From Levilactobacillus parabrevis ATCC 53295 (GTDB taxonomy: Bacteria > Bacillota > Bacilli > Lactobacillales > Lactobacillaceae): a DNA stretch of 33,613 nucleotides. The DNA lies in contig NZ_AZCZ01000033.1 in assembly GCF_001434055.1 (NCBI RefSeq), positions 1-33,613 on the forward strand, given 5' to 3'. The notes beneath the pieces were generated by a model. The model saw only the letters and a program-made list of their open reading frames with translations. It made no database searches and had not been told where the DNA came from. Positions within the stretch are counted from its first letter, which is position 1. Every line of letters starts with the position of its first letter. Below, in pieces: positions 3 to 28,962 of this stretch. The translations under genes were made by a program, and so were the position numbers.

Positions 3-242
3 GAAGTAATGCCAGACCATATCCATTTACTACTAAGCTTTAAGCCCAAGTATGCACCAACCAATGTCGTCAAAGCCTTCAAGGGCGGTTCGGCTCGTTT
101 ATTCTTTGAATTACACCCAGAAATAAAGGTTCAGAAGTTCTGGGGCGGACATCTCTGGTCTCCAAGTTATTTCATGAGTACTCTTGGTGATATGAGCAAG
201 GAAACTGTAGAAAACTACATTGCCAGTCAGCGAAAGGCATAG
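3..242 (+). CDS. tnpA: IS200/IS605-family transposase TnpA, 3' part only
   Basis: This is the C-terminal part of a Y1 (HUH) single-strand DNA transposase; the window starts inside the gene. The frame is open from base 3 and reads E-V-M-P-D-H-I-H-L-L, which contains the HUH metal-binding motif (H-I-H). Further on it reads W-G-G-H-L-W-S-P-S-Y, and the helix near the C-terminus (E-N-Y-I-A-S-Q) carries the likely catalytic tyrosine. TnpA enzymes excise and insert IS elements as single strands by recognising subterminal hairpins, and one such hairpin lies 10 bases after the stop. No tnpB follows, so this is either a tnpA-only IS200-type element or the tnpA part of an IS605-type element whose other gene lies upstream. 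Whether the gene is intact cannot be judged here. Confidence 0.9.
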   Translation, partial: EVMPDHIHLLLSFKPKYAPTNVVKAFKGGSARLFFELHPEIKVQKFWGGHLWSPSYFMSTLGDMSKETVENYIASQRKA

Positions 243-26104: not shown

Positions 26105-26221
26105 ATGAGAAAAGCACATCCAAATGGCGTTCAAGGTCGTCGGAAGGTTAACCGTAAAAAGGACCGGAAGCGACGCGACGAAATTTCAGACTTACAACGT
26201 TGGTTAAAGAACAAAAAGTAA
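26105..26221 (+). CDS. 38-aa highly basic peptide of unknown function
   Basis: The peptide starts MRKAHPNGVQGRRKVNRKKD and ends in an amphipathic helix (residues 25-38, D-E-I-S-D-L-Q-R-W-L-K-N-K-K). Eighteen of 38 residues are Arg, Lys or His. Coding evidence: a -35/-10 promoter with 17-nt spacing, GAGGG about 9 nt before the ATG, a clean stop, and a strong terminator 18 nt later. It is a self-contained monocistronic gene. The charge suggests an RNA- or ribosome-associated protein; a cationic peptide is an alternative. I do not recognise it. Confidence 0.72.
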   Translation: MRKAHPNGVQGRRKVNRKKDRKRRDEISDLQRWLKNKK

Positions 26222-26238
26222 ATCTGACGCCTTACCGT

Positions 26239-26277
26239 AAAACGCACTGACATTTATTGTCAGTGCGTTTTATTTTT
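26239..26277 (+). terminator. Terminator of the 38-aa peptide gene
   Basis: A perfect 13-bp stem (AAAACGCACTGAC / GTCAGTGCGTTTT), 7-nt loop and ATTTTT tail. Confidence 0.9.
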
Positions 26278-26295
26278 GTCCAGTCTTTTTTAAGT

Positions 26296-26480
26296 GCCTC
26301 CGGGCTGGTGAAAATGGGCTGTGGCGCTGAGGGCGGACGCCTAAAGCCAAAGAACGGTCTTTAGGCTTGGGAGTAAGCCGCTTAAAACCGCGTCTTCCCC
26401 CCACCCAATTATCTAACCGGCATGACCCTCGCCGCTAAGATAATTCCCACAGCTGAGCCCATTTTCACCAGCCCTGCGGC
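26296..26480 (+). repeat. R2 structured element, copy A (185 nt)
   Basis: The ends pair as GCCTCCGG / CCTGCGGC with two mismatches, continuing into a perfect 19-bp stem (26302-26320 with 26456-26474). Inside are a GCCTAAAG / CTTTAGGC hairpin with a CCAAAGAACGGT loop and an AATTATCT / AGATAATT hairpin. The same architecture with different stem sequences occurs in copies B and C. No reading frame of note is present. It lies between the 38-aa gene and the uspA terminator; 26481-26581 shows nothing else. Confidence 0.75.
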
Positions 26481-26581
26481 TTTACATAGTGTTAGGGCAA
26501 ACGCACTTGACAATTATGACACTAACCCTCTGCCCTTTACGAATACACGCCAACCTCCCTTCCCATCTAAAATTCCCACAA

Positions 26582-26611
26582 AATAAAAAGGACCTGACAG
26601 TCGCCAGATCC
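26582..26611 (-). terminator. Terminator of the UspA gene
   Basis: On the - strand GGATCTG (26611-26605) pairs with CAGGTCC (26596-26590, one G-T) and is followed by TTTTTATTTT. Confidence 0.75.
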
Positions 26612-26622
26612 CTAAAACGTTA

Positions 26623-27048
26623 TTAATTTACAACTAATACACTTGATTTAGAATTGTGAACCACGTAGCTCGTCGTGGAGCCCATGATGGCACGCCCTAA
26701 ACCGTGCGAACCGGAACGGCCAATGACCGTCAGATCCGTGTTCAATTCTTCTGGCAAGGTTACGGCAATCGTCGGCTTGGGGAGTCCCGTCTTGAACCGT
26801 GTTTCAACGGGCACACCCGCCTGCTTCACTTCTTCAACAGCGGTATCCAAGAACTTGGAAGCTGCTTCCTTGAAGTGGGTCACAATTTCACTGCCGAATT
26901 CCGCGCCGTAGTGGGCATAGGTCTGATCACTAGCGACGGAAACGATGAACAACTTCGATCCAAGCTTTTGCGCCAATTTGGTCGCCTCCACCAGTGCTTT
27001 GTGGGCATTCTTGCTCCCATCCATTGGTACTAAGATCCGTTCATACAT
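26623..27048 (-). CDS. UspA-family universal stress protein
   Basis: 141 residues, a single-domain Usp. It begins Y-E-R-I-L-V-P-M-D-G-S-K-N-A-H-K-A and has the ATP-binding motif G-R-S-G-S-H-G-L-G-R-A-I-M-G-S-T-T near the end, so it is of the nucleotide-binding type. The final strand is S-S-V-L-V-V-N. Such proteins aid survival under acid or starvation stress in lactobacilli. ATG 27048 has AAAGGA at about 10 nt. A -35/-10 promoter lies upstream and a 10-bp palindrome overlaps its -35. Confidence 0.92.
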   Translation of the reverse strand: MYERILVPMDGSKNAHKALVEATKLAQKLGSKLFIVSVASDQTYAHYGAEFGSEIVTHFKEAASKFLDTAVEEVKQAGVPVETRFKTGLPKPTIAVTLPEELNTDLTVIGRSGSHGLGRAIMGSTTSYVVHNSKSSVLVVN

Positions 27049-27104
27049 GATATCCCGTCCTTTCCATACTAAACCATCAATGTGGTATCGCTTTCAACAC
27101 CTTT

Positions 27105-27157
27105 ATCATAGCAATAATTACGCCTCGTGAAAAGGTAAATGCACAAATTTTCACGAG
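27105..27157 (-). promoter_or_regulatory. uspA promoter with palindrome over the -35
   Basis: On the - strand -35 TTTTCA (27133-27128), 17-nt spacer and extended -10 TGC-TATGAT (27110-27105). The perfect 10-bp inverted repeat CTCGTGAAAA (27124-27133) / TTTTCACGAG (27148-27157), 14 nt apart, covers the -35 and the region upstream, where a repressor or activator dimer could bind. The region also serves the divergent lipoprotein gene. Confidence 0.55.
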
Positions 27158-27267
27158 AATTTTAGGGTTCTGGGTAAATGTTTAGCTGATTCTCATTCTG
27201 GCATTCCTTACGGTTTGTGGTAAGATTAATCAAACGACTCAATAATAGAAGGATGGTTTCCAAAATA

Positions 27268-28152
27268 ATGAAGAAGTTTTTGTTGGGTGCCCTGGGGTTG
27301 CTTGCCTTAACCCTAGCCGGCTGCTCGAATAATAAAGTCACCACGAAGAAGAACACTTACCGCCCAACTGCACTGACCGCTGTTGTTAAGGGGACGGCTG
27401 GTGCCAAACAGGTGAACTATCAAATTGACAATGGCAAGAAACAAACGGTCAAGACCAGCGGCAGCGCTTATTTCTTTCAAGTCCCCGCTGCCACTAAGGA
27501 TCAAACTGTGAAGATTACCGCCGGCAGCGCCCAGAAGACAATTACCGTCAAAAAGGTTAAGGATTTAGGTAATTACAAGAAGCTTGCCGCCAAGTACAAC
27601 CAGATGGTTATCGGCACCTACTTACCCACCAAGGTGCAAAAACAACTCCAATCCGCCCAAAAGAATCAGGCCGCAACCAAGAAAAAAATGATAGCCTTAG
27701 CTAAGACTGACCCAATGGCCGCCGCGGCTGCCGCTCAAAAGCAGCAAGCCGCCGCTAAGCAGTTACAAGCCGAAATGGCCACGGCCAAGAAGAAGGCCAA
27801 GGATAGCCTCCTACCAACCACGACTAAAGACGGCGTGAAGAACCTCGTCAACACCAAATACACCACGGTGCGGGCCAACGTTCAAGATGGCAAGCTGATG
27901 GGCTTAGCCATGATTACGCCAACCGAGCAGATGAAGACCAAGACGGGCCAAAAGAAATTTGGGACCACCTTCGCTCTGCTGGGAAGCACACTGAACGCCA
28001 AGCCAAAGTACGTCATCAATAAGTTTGAAAAAGTCTTGAAGGACGCTAAGAAGAACAGCTCTTCCACGACGACCAAGACCATCAAGTCCAATGGCATCCG
28101 CTTCAATACCGGCTTCTCAACGGATCACCTCTACATCTACATGACAAAATAA
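27268..28152 (+). CDS. Lysine-rich lipoprotein of unknown function
   Basis: 294 residues. The signal peptide M-K-K-F-L-L-G-A-L-G-L-L-A-L-T-L ends in the lipobox L-A-G-C with lipid-carrying Cys19. After a K/T-rich linker comes a beta-rich domain (about 30-110; R-P-T-A-L-T-A-V-V-K-G-T-A-G-A-K-Q-V-N-Y). A long Ala/Lys/Gln helix (about 125-185) with coiled-coil character follows, then a mixed C-terminal domain. No enzymatic motif is seen. Start: ATG 27268 is chosen because it gives a standard lipoprotein signal, although GAAGG is 15 nt away; ATG 27253 is an alternative. Divergent from uspA. Confidence 0.75.
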   Translation: MKKFLLGALGLLALTLAGCSNNKVTTKKNTYRPTALTAVVKGTAGAKQVNYQIDNGKKQTVKTSGSAYFFQVPAATKDQTVKITAGSAQKTITVKKVKDLGNYKKLAAKYNQMVIGTYLPTKVQKQLQSAQKNQAATKKKMIALAKTDPMAAAAAAQKQQAAAKQLQAEMATAKKKAKDSLLPTTTKDGVKNLVNTKYTTVRANVQDGKLMGLAMITPTEQMKTKTGQKKFGTTFALLGSTLNAKPKYVINKFEKVLKDAKKNSSSTTTKTIKSNGIRFNTGFSTDHLYIYMTK

Positions 28153-28161
28153 CAATCAACG

Positions 28162-28194
28162 AAGCTCAGTGGATATTACCGCTGAGCTTTTTTT
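28162..28194 (+). terminator. Terminator of the lipoprotein gene
   Basis: An 8-bp outer stem (AAGCTCAG / CTGAGCTT) extended by GG / CC inside, followed by seven T in total. Confidence 0.85.
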
Positions 28195-28204
28195 CATACG
28201 GTCG

Positions 28205-28396
28205 GTCGCCTGCGGCTGTCGAGGTTCCGCCTGCCATGGGGACCGCCTACAGCCAAAAAACGGGCTTTCGGCTTGGTTTGAAGCCTTGCAAAAGTCATGC
28301 AAGTCTTCAAACACATCCCACGGTGTAAGGCCGGGAAGAACCACCCGGTCTAACACCGCCGTCACGGCTGGCTACACTCCGACATCCTCCGGCGAC
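28205..28396 (+). repeat. R2 structured element, copy B (192 nt)
   Basis: Ends GTCGCCTGCGG / CCTCCGGCGAC pair with the same two mismatches as copy A. Inner helices: TGTCG / CGACA; GCCTACAG / CTTTCGGC around the loop CCAAAAAACGGG; GGTGT-AAG-GCCGGG / CCCGGTCTAACACC around AAGAACCA. About 65-70 percent alike to copy C over its length by eye. No plausible gene overlaps it. The 141 nt between copies B and C (28397-28537) show nothing recognisable. Confidence 0.78.
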
Positions 28397-28537
28397 ACTA
28401 CCCTCAAATATATCGTAACCTCTACAACGACATCATTAGCTAATCTTCAACGACTAATTCATCGCATAATTGTCAGACAAACGCCAGCCACCTACATTCC
28501 AGTGACCGCCCGATGATTCATGTGAACGACGCGTTTA

Positions 28538-28730
28538 GCCGGAGGTAGCCAAGGATGTCACCAGCCGTATCGATGGCGTTAGGACGGGCGCTCGCTTCTT
28601 CCCGCTCTTACGCCATGGGACGAGCTTGGAAACTCGTGGTCTTGATGAGGTTTCAAGTCGAGGTTCAAGACCGCCCTTTGGCTTGGACCGGTCCCCACAT
28701 CAGGTGGAATTCTTGGCTACCGCAGGCGAC
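28538..28730 (-). repeat. R2 structured element, copy C (193 nt), inverted
   Basis: Reads on the - strand from GTCGCCTGCGGTAGCC (28730) to GGCTACCTCCGGC (28538). The closing stem is GCCTGCGGTAGCCAAG / CTTGGCTACCTCCGGC with the same two mismatches; then a GGTCCAAG / CTTGAACC hairpin with loop CCAAAGGGCGGT; then GGCGT-AAG / CT-A-ACGCC over CGGG / CCCG. It faces copy B. The flank 28731-28962 before the MarR gene shows no clear promoter or gene. Confidence 0.78.
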
Positions 28731-28962
28731 AGTTGCCCACAAGTCTCACGAACACTAGTTACTGGGATAAAGTTAGTTAGCGTATACCCTGAACCAGATA
28801 ACAAACTGAATTGTCCTAACCCTTCCTCCCTAAGCGCAATCATTTTTATCCCTAGCAATCAGGCGGCATAATAACGGTATGCTGAGGTAGTGAATAGGTG
28901 CGGTGATTTTGCGCGTCAAAATTTACTAAACCGGCTAGATTCGTTTTCAAGGGGGAGTTATT

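Follow-up and report, generated by a model that had tools for sequence, protein, structure and literature searches.

The question raised by this locus is what kind of element lies, in three copies (A, B and C) of about 190 nt each, within a 33,613-nt stretch of the Levilactobacillus parabrevis genome (the window, meaning the whole stretch analyzed), and in which molecule its fold is used. The original prediction had described three structured copies sharing one fold with compensatory changes, and all three were located by reading and by pattern. They belong to a dispersed family whose branched fold is kept while bases change on both sides of its stems, and whose copies occupy sites that are empty in close species. 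We judge the chance to be about even that the copies are a non-autonomous mobile DNA repeat, on whose folded single strand an enzyme encoded elsewhere acts. The features concerned are as follows.

26238–26272, + strand: terminator-like perfect 15-bp inverted repeat with a T run, 23 nt before copy A
26296–26480, + strand: copy A core, subfamily A, 185 nt, from sequence reading and end pattern; built of a terminal stem with a TxC/TyC internal loop, a long outer stem and junctions
26339–26366, + strand: hairpin H1 of copy A, with the near-constant loop CCAAAGAACGGT; helix 4 of the 65-pair structure
26407–26445, + strand: hairpin H3 of copy A, AATTATCT / AGATAATT, from reading and folding
28164–28196, + strand: terminator-like hairpin with a T run, lying after the stop of the upstream gene (28152) and before copy B
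28208–28393, + strand: copy B core, subfamily B, 186 nt, 166.7 bits on the covariance model
28320–28358, + strand: hairpin H3 of copy B, GGTGT / ACACC; helix 6 of the structure
28538–28727, − strand: copy C core, subfamily B, 190 nt, 167.9 bits, facing copy B
28573–28616, − strand: hairpin H3 of copy C, GGCGT / ACGCC

Fold and covariation of the copies

The terminal stem reads GCC-T-x-C-GG / CC-T-y-C-GGC, where x-y is C-G in A but G-C in the other two copies and the T/C and C/T mismatches are kept, and both the change of an internal stem from GGTGT/ACACC (B) to GGCGT/ACGCC (C) and the near-constant hairpin loop (CCAAARRRCGGK) were found as predicted. The claimed lengths of 185, 192 and 193 nt stood for A; the cores of B and C measure 186 and 190 nt, and the longer values presumably include a few flanking bases. 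Copy A has inverted-repeat arms of 25 nt (92% complementary) and scored 82.9 bits on the B-type covariance model, and subfamily A (copy A) and subfamily B (copies B and C) are homologous. The second helix had been said to differ completely and still pair; the difference was found, and because A belongs to another subfamily than B and C, it is one between subfamilies. RNA folding z-scores were −6.7 for A, −5.9 for B and −2.7 for C.

In the fold, the outer stem is long and is interrupted by the TxC/TyC internal loop after the first three pairs from its end; next come the helix GCTGTG/CACRGC and a three-way junction bearing hairpin H3 and a short helix that carries H1 and H2, with two three-way junctions overall. 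Type-B cores are 175–194 nt long, and the alignment comprised 50 of about 130 type-B copies (30 from this genome and 20 from others). RNAalifold returned 44 pairs on it, 34 with double changes. In a 65-pair structure, 91.8% of 3179 cells were paired and 51 of the 65 pairs had changes on both sides, with 436 double-change cells compared with 132.6 after shuffling, a value reached in none of 500 shuffles; all 14 pairs of helix 6 (H3) had changed on both sides. When the structure was slid, just 32–44% of cells paired, a control that favors the structure since the 65 pairs were partly derived from the same sequences. The part of the original prediction that saw more here than simple copying is borne out by these values.

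Because the 50 copies were chosen by their end pattern, the terminal pairs were unable to vary in the alignment. When 24 type-B copies were instead taken from the model matches lacking that pattern, all four mismatch bases were kept in 17, and the two mismatch positions had turned complementary in 0 and 1 of the 24. Some lower-scoring copies end differently (GCCTTACCGG...CCCTCACGGC).

Copy number, spread and occupied sites

The end pattern GCCTNCGGN{158,188}CCTNCGGC had 62 matches in the L. parabrevis genome and the reversed pattern had one, and the covariance model gave at least 136 matches at E ≤ 0.001, some partial, from 150 of 794 candidates scored. These copies were dispersed over many contigs between ordinary genes. 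The bipartite pattern was present in 28 of 58 related genomes, all of one genus, single matches at L031, L047, L048 and L057 looking like chance; with a stricter pattern across genome contigs, all 74 stretches were from Levilactobacillus or unclassified 'Lactobacillus sp.' The pattern undercounts, as the model had matches in three genomes (G016, G022 and G024) where the pattern gave none. One genome (G019; L035, 88–643) had three head-to-tail full or partial copies with a 188-nt period.

Among 246 genomes of the order, with 10 candidates scored per genome so that counts are minima, model matches were found in seven (this one and six others) from five of 65 genera, all in one family. The relatives in other genera (G251, G198, G246, G256, G233 and G136) had a different sequence and the same plan; in their single-sequence folds, compared by eye, some were without H2 and several had a TNC/TNC loop near the end. 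Near-identical copies in G256 had about 60 nt of 5′ flank in common, which points to recent spread of that branch, and three units there had ends resembling terminal inverted repeats 305–339 nt apart (such ends were searched in G256 alone).

The view that no known family has this layout held: Rfam had no match to the elements, either for the window at the gathering score or for positions 26200–28900 and six relatives at E ≤ 1, where two sub-threshold mir-287 matches fell on the terminator before copy A, outside the cores. The family is not described in the literature searched, which included parts of PMC2267715 and PMC11109978 and few subscription papers. A Levilactobacillus copy had no phage or plasmid match and the window stretch no plasmid match; a G256 copy matched seven lactobacillar plasmids over 26–32% of the query, three of which were inspected. 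On a plasmid of L. brevis, a related stretch (L309, 3001–3083) adjoins a gene for an S8 peptidase. No relative was found in a viral-contig search using the neighboring lipoprotein-like gene.

One clean case of presence and absence was L071, where 20 + 192 + 68 nt (about 280 nt) lie in this genome between sequences that are adjacent in G001, a relative about 90% identical, the flanks being 92 and 88% identical. Across 35 genomes, 27 of the 34 others, G001 included, matched straight through this site and seven were interrupted (G003, G011, G017, G019, G020, G026 and G030); the model found no copy in the fetched stretches of all 10 uninterrupted genomes checked, nor in that of G003. We read the difference as a gain in this genome. 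At the window locus, the model found A and C in G001 with B truncated, other copies in G023, and no match in G014, G017, G010 or G030. Model matches were held by 18 of 29 fetched window loci, several species having them elsewhere within these intergenic regions, so that the regions have been occupied repeatedly or for long. The original prediction is not supported as it was put: the copies are a dispersed mobile repeat, with sites occupied in one species and empty in a close one, and action as a resident RNA gene is not supported. Copies also differed by an internal deletion between short direct repeats (L078 compared with L115) and, where the outer stem stayed as it was, by a swap of the inside (L073/L154 and L084/L024).

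Gene context was assigned to 60 copies of this genome with a simple open reading frame (ORF) picker, a heuristic. The upstream neighbor read into the copy in 33 of them, and with a limit of 100 nt between gene and copy start, 31 copies lay downstream of a gene reading in and 12 next to one reading away. Neighboring copies less than 700 nt apart faced each other in 18 of 20 cases and never pointed apart. The copies are biased to gene 3′ ends, A and B following a terminator-like hairpin, and some read against both neighbors (L071). Flank conservation was weak and faded beyond about 18 nt, with only a weak GTC before the GCC.

The folding strand, long arms and landed copies

The stem cells of 90 distinct type-B copies comprised 5231 Watson–Crick, 130 G-U, 166 A-C and 255 other combinations; 56 of the G-U cells sat in one column, without which 74 G-U compared with 166 A-C. 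A-C exceeded G-U in 39 columns and the reverse held in 15 (sign test p = 0.0015, columns not being fully independent), H2 alone had 34 A-C and 3 G-U, and the 24 copies of subfamily A had 52 and 25. As A-C on the strand read corresponds to G-U or G-T on the complement, these counts suggest that any strand acting in folded form is probably the complementary one to that carrying A and B. On the strand in which the original prediction was written, G-U is not favored over A-C, which argues against an RNA from that strand. Conserved unpaired columns of the strand read held 615 T, 979 C, 620 A and 90 G (2304 bases), and their poverty in G means purine-rich loops on the complement, a second pointer to that strand, though neither pointer is proof. 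A tRNA control was weak: 41 tRNAs had 49 G-U and, by construction, zero A-C, since ARAGORN brackets standard pairs alone, and mismatch dots appeared in about six distinct tRNAs among those listed. The difference in folding energy between top and bottom strands was discarded as strand evidence because shuffled copies show the same (82 of 89) and it is mostly composition. A protein-coding element, for which the complement strand shows GGAGG...ATG and similar short peptides, was also rejected: core lengths modulo 3 were split 29/35/28 among 92 and the frames end at different places.

Beyond the cores, the flanks pair with a mean of −21.3 kcal/mol compared with −16.3 kcal/mol for shuffled partners (123 copies, including at least one chance match, L047). 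These arms are locus-specific sequence, some extending into coding ends, and under strict scoring arms with a score of at least 24 flanked 17 of 117 copies compared with 7 of 351 controls. At L053, about 120 nt per side align and the 3′ arm resembles an inverted copy of the 5′ arm, which is old host sequence found also in G030, G003 and G032, whose fetched stretches contain no model copy, and in G033, where the match to the model is weak and A-like. In 16 copies close behind stops, complementarity between 3′ flank and gene end was 44.5 compared with 38.1 for other flanks (p = 0.006), with the strongest signal at L070 and L007, first rank in 6 of 16 and a place in the lower half in 5 of 16, including L004. 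The idea that every insertion is born with inverted host copies was dropped, the clean L071 insertion having just a short stem like those of the element itself, without significant host complementarity (64 of 500 shuffles as high). Arm complementarity was not raised in other genera (44.3 compared with 43.0; 20 loci). Over 30 orthologous pairs it was 55.1 within species, 54.95 across species and 41.4 between unrelated arms, so that the arms are old and not rewritten at this time scale; both arms in G019 have TGACTTGGGTGGTCT, absent from the arms of G011, G020 and G026. We infer that the long arms arise by slow, rare inverted copying beside a strong hairpin.

Orthologous copies were compared in 20 separate pairs with core divergence of at most 12%, a limit that lowers the core rates; 8 and 10 orthologous-site pairs above it were excluded and look like replaced or separate copies. 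Differences were 0.043 in stems, 0.105 in occupied loop columns and 0.186–0.190 in the 3′ flank at 21–200 nt, and 0.025–0.039 in the mostly coding 5′ flank at 61–200 nt. The first 20 nt of flank run counter to a simple picture, differing at 0.273 (5′) and 0.094 (3′). Here too the original prediction is not supported as it was put, since most differences between orthologues were one-sided, with 109 such changes and 9 double ones counted in 26 pairs. Neutral decay of landed copies, to which the one-sided changes had pointed, was abandoned because stems are slower than loops and the 3′ flank. The stems of landed copies are partly protected by selection or correction, their changes being mostly uncompensated at this depth.

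Candidate movers and competing explanations

A transposase-bearing parent, which the original prediction had named as a contrary outcome, was searched for and none was found. A Y1 transposase is unsupported as the mover since it is missing from some copy-rich genomes: no match was obtained in G011 (123 pattern copies), G032 (51) or G002 (25), although a lost or distant partner is possible, and G012 and G031 had 2 and 5 Y1 matches with zero pattern copies, a count that the pattern may understate. An integron integrase is unsupported, with none above the cut-off in 35 genomes and weaker matches in all 35 as well as in 14 of 14 control genomes.

The closest working analogies are REP elements with TnpA-REP and integron attC sites. 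In the parts of PMC8266576 consulted, REP elements are hairpins of 20–50 nt preceded by a tetranucleotide, mostly GTAG, and in E. coli two conserved mismatches form a bulge that is needed for activity, the element being recognized single-stranded. REP/BIME elements with TnpA-REP (RAYT, a Y1 HUH transposase) are likewise dispersed intergenic palindromes, and their bulge is comparable to the TxC/TyC loop, but the elements here are about 190 nt long with two three-way junctions and no GTAG-type tetranucleotide. Cores of 175–194 nt and copy-rich genomes without Y1 place them outside the REP/BIME–RAYT system. Integron attC sites lie downstream of an ORF. They conserve structure over sequence in an imperfect palindrome with unpaired bases and are recombined as the bottom strand (PMC2727003, in part). 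The elements here share the conservation of shape above sequence and the unpaired bases of an imperfect palindrome, whereas they are branched and dispersed, with no cassette arrays seen and no integrase above the cut-off. Miniature inverted-repeat transposable elements (MITEs), BOX, ERIC and bcr1 are short, non-coding, high-copy, intergenic and folding. The copies here are alike in being short, non-coding, multi-copy, intergenic and folded, and, as in a MITE, a multi-copy non-coding unit is inserted whole (at one clean locus); unlike those families, their sequence has diverged across genera with the architecture kept, and they have no Rfam match and no parent insertion sequence (IS) was found. 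MRSC-65-2, a mobile/repeat sequence candidate, is likewise structured and multi-copy and is regarded as selfish, perhaps with relevance at the DNA level (PMC11109978, in part); compared by description only, it differs in having a conserved UYCCGG repeat, and lactobacilli go unmentioned in the main text (PMC11109978).

For the non-autonomous mobile DNA repeat, we infer both the mover and the single-strand step. The element would move in single-stranded, folded form, probably with the strand opposite to that bearing A and B, and a recombinase or transposase encoded elsewhere would recognize its shape and unpaired bases, in which case the compensation between copies would reflect selection at every round of movement. 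Once landed, copies can have their insides deleted or swapped between them. The hairpin may also favor occasional inverted copying of the host DNA beside it, which would give the long locus-specific arms. More tentatively, and on balance doubtfully, there may exist in the Lactobacillaceae a superfamily of branched, shape-recognized mobile elements whose folded single DNA strand is moved by an enzyme other than the known HUH transposases and integron integrases. Their sequence would be free to vary provided that the fold and some unpaired bases were kept, and landed copies would drive inverted copying of adjacent host genes.

Several findings weigh against a mobile repeat moved in this way. No mobilizing enzyme or autonomous parent was found in the Y1 and integron integrase searches, and the sole gene inside a unit (G256, L315 at about 1700–2870) is that of a nested IS30-family IS, with a transposase of 338 aa (NF033563, 250.6 bits) and an insertion flanked by repeated GAACCGAGAAAAAGT. 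This repeat is unusually long for an IS30-family target duplication. At L071, the sole clean locus, the only candidate target-site duplication is the imperfect CAACTAAGC/CAGCTAATC, G017 and G020 carry copies in the same interval, and the difference may instead be a clean loss in G001. Given the other copies in the window's intergenic regions in several species, A–C need not be young. The strand asymmetry is modest, at 2.2 to 1 (1.3 to 1 with the left-out column) over non-independent cells, and the slower change of orthologue stems than loops (0.043 compared with 0.105) could mean function in place.

Covariation could also come from replication itself, if template switching copies one hairpin arm onto the other (quasipalindrome correction). 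In line with this, G-U intermediates are not favored, the locus-specific flanking arms pair too, some of them into coding ends, with arms of about 120 nt at L053 whose 5′ member is old host sequence, orthologue stems are slower than loops, and TGACTTGGGTGGTCT in both G019 arms is one hint of concerted change. We nevertheless regard this source as unlikely, because the terminal mismatches persist without correction even where copies were selected on other grounds, the arms do not evolve in concert at 8–10% divergence (55.1 and 54.95, with unrelated arms at 41.4), the fold persists with other sequence in other genera, and the process does not predict the asymmetry between A-C and G-U. That asymmetry, the purine-rich loops and the compact architecture with two three-way junctions would suit a transcript of the complement strand, a structured RNA acting in trans or in element mobility. 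Such an RNA seems improbable to us: neither strand has an Rfam family, the flanks are weakly conserved with no promoter-like consensus noticed (no dedicated promoter scan was run), and the lower folding energy of that strand is mostly composition (82 of 89 shuffled). A 3′ untranslated element read with the upstream gene, as a terminator or mRNA stabilizer, draws on the 31 of 60 copies whose start follows a gene reading in by no more than 100 nt, compared with 12 for genes reading away, and on the 18 of 20 close pairs that face each other, but it has little probability given that A-C exceeds G-U on that strand, that A and B already follow a terminator-like hairpin, that copies are present or absent at the same sites, and that some oppose both neighbors (L071). 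The mobile repeat used as a folded single strand stays the best reading despite repeated site occupancy and ends picked by pattern.

What is new is a branched shape that outlasts the drift of its sequence between genera, the arms, and a family absent from the catalogues searched. A bacterial repeat with shape more conserved than sequence across genera and more than 100 copies in this genome offers a natural experiment on the spread of shape-recognized elements, on which strand folds and on hairpins that remodel neighboring genes. It also cautions that strong covariation by itself does not prove an RNA to be functional; to tell which molecule is selected and at which stage, it helps to consider wobble asymmetry, empty sites and orthologues.

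Other observations concern the surroundings of the copies. An ORF of 38 codons rich in Lys and Arg (26106–26222, + strand) adjoins the copy A site, and its DNA was matched in 28 of the 29 loci fetched from other species. A fragment of a Y1 (IS200-type) transposase lies at the left edge of the window (3–230, + strand). By eye, a second palindromic repeat family was recognized, with long hairpins, GCGGTTAGCTGG...CCAGCTGCC and TTAAGCGGAACC stretches and locus-specific arms, at the A site of G007 (L209), at the BC site of G010 (L203) and at L013 around 2290–2500.

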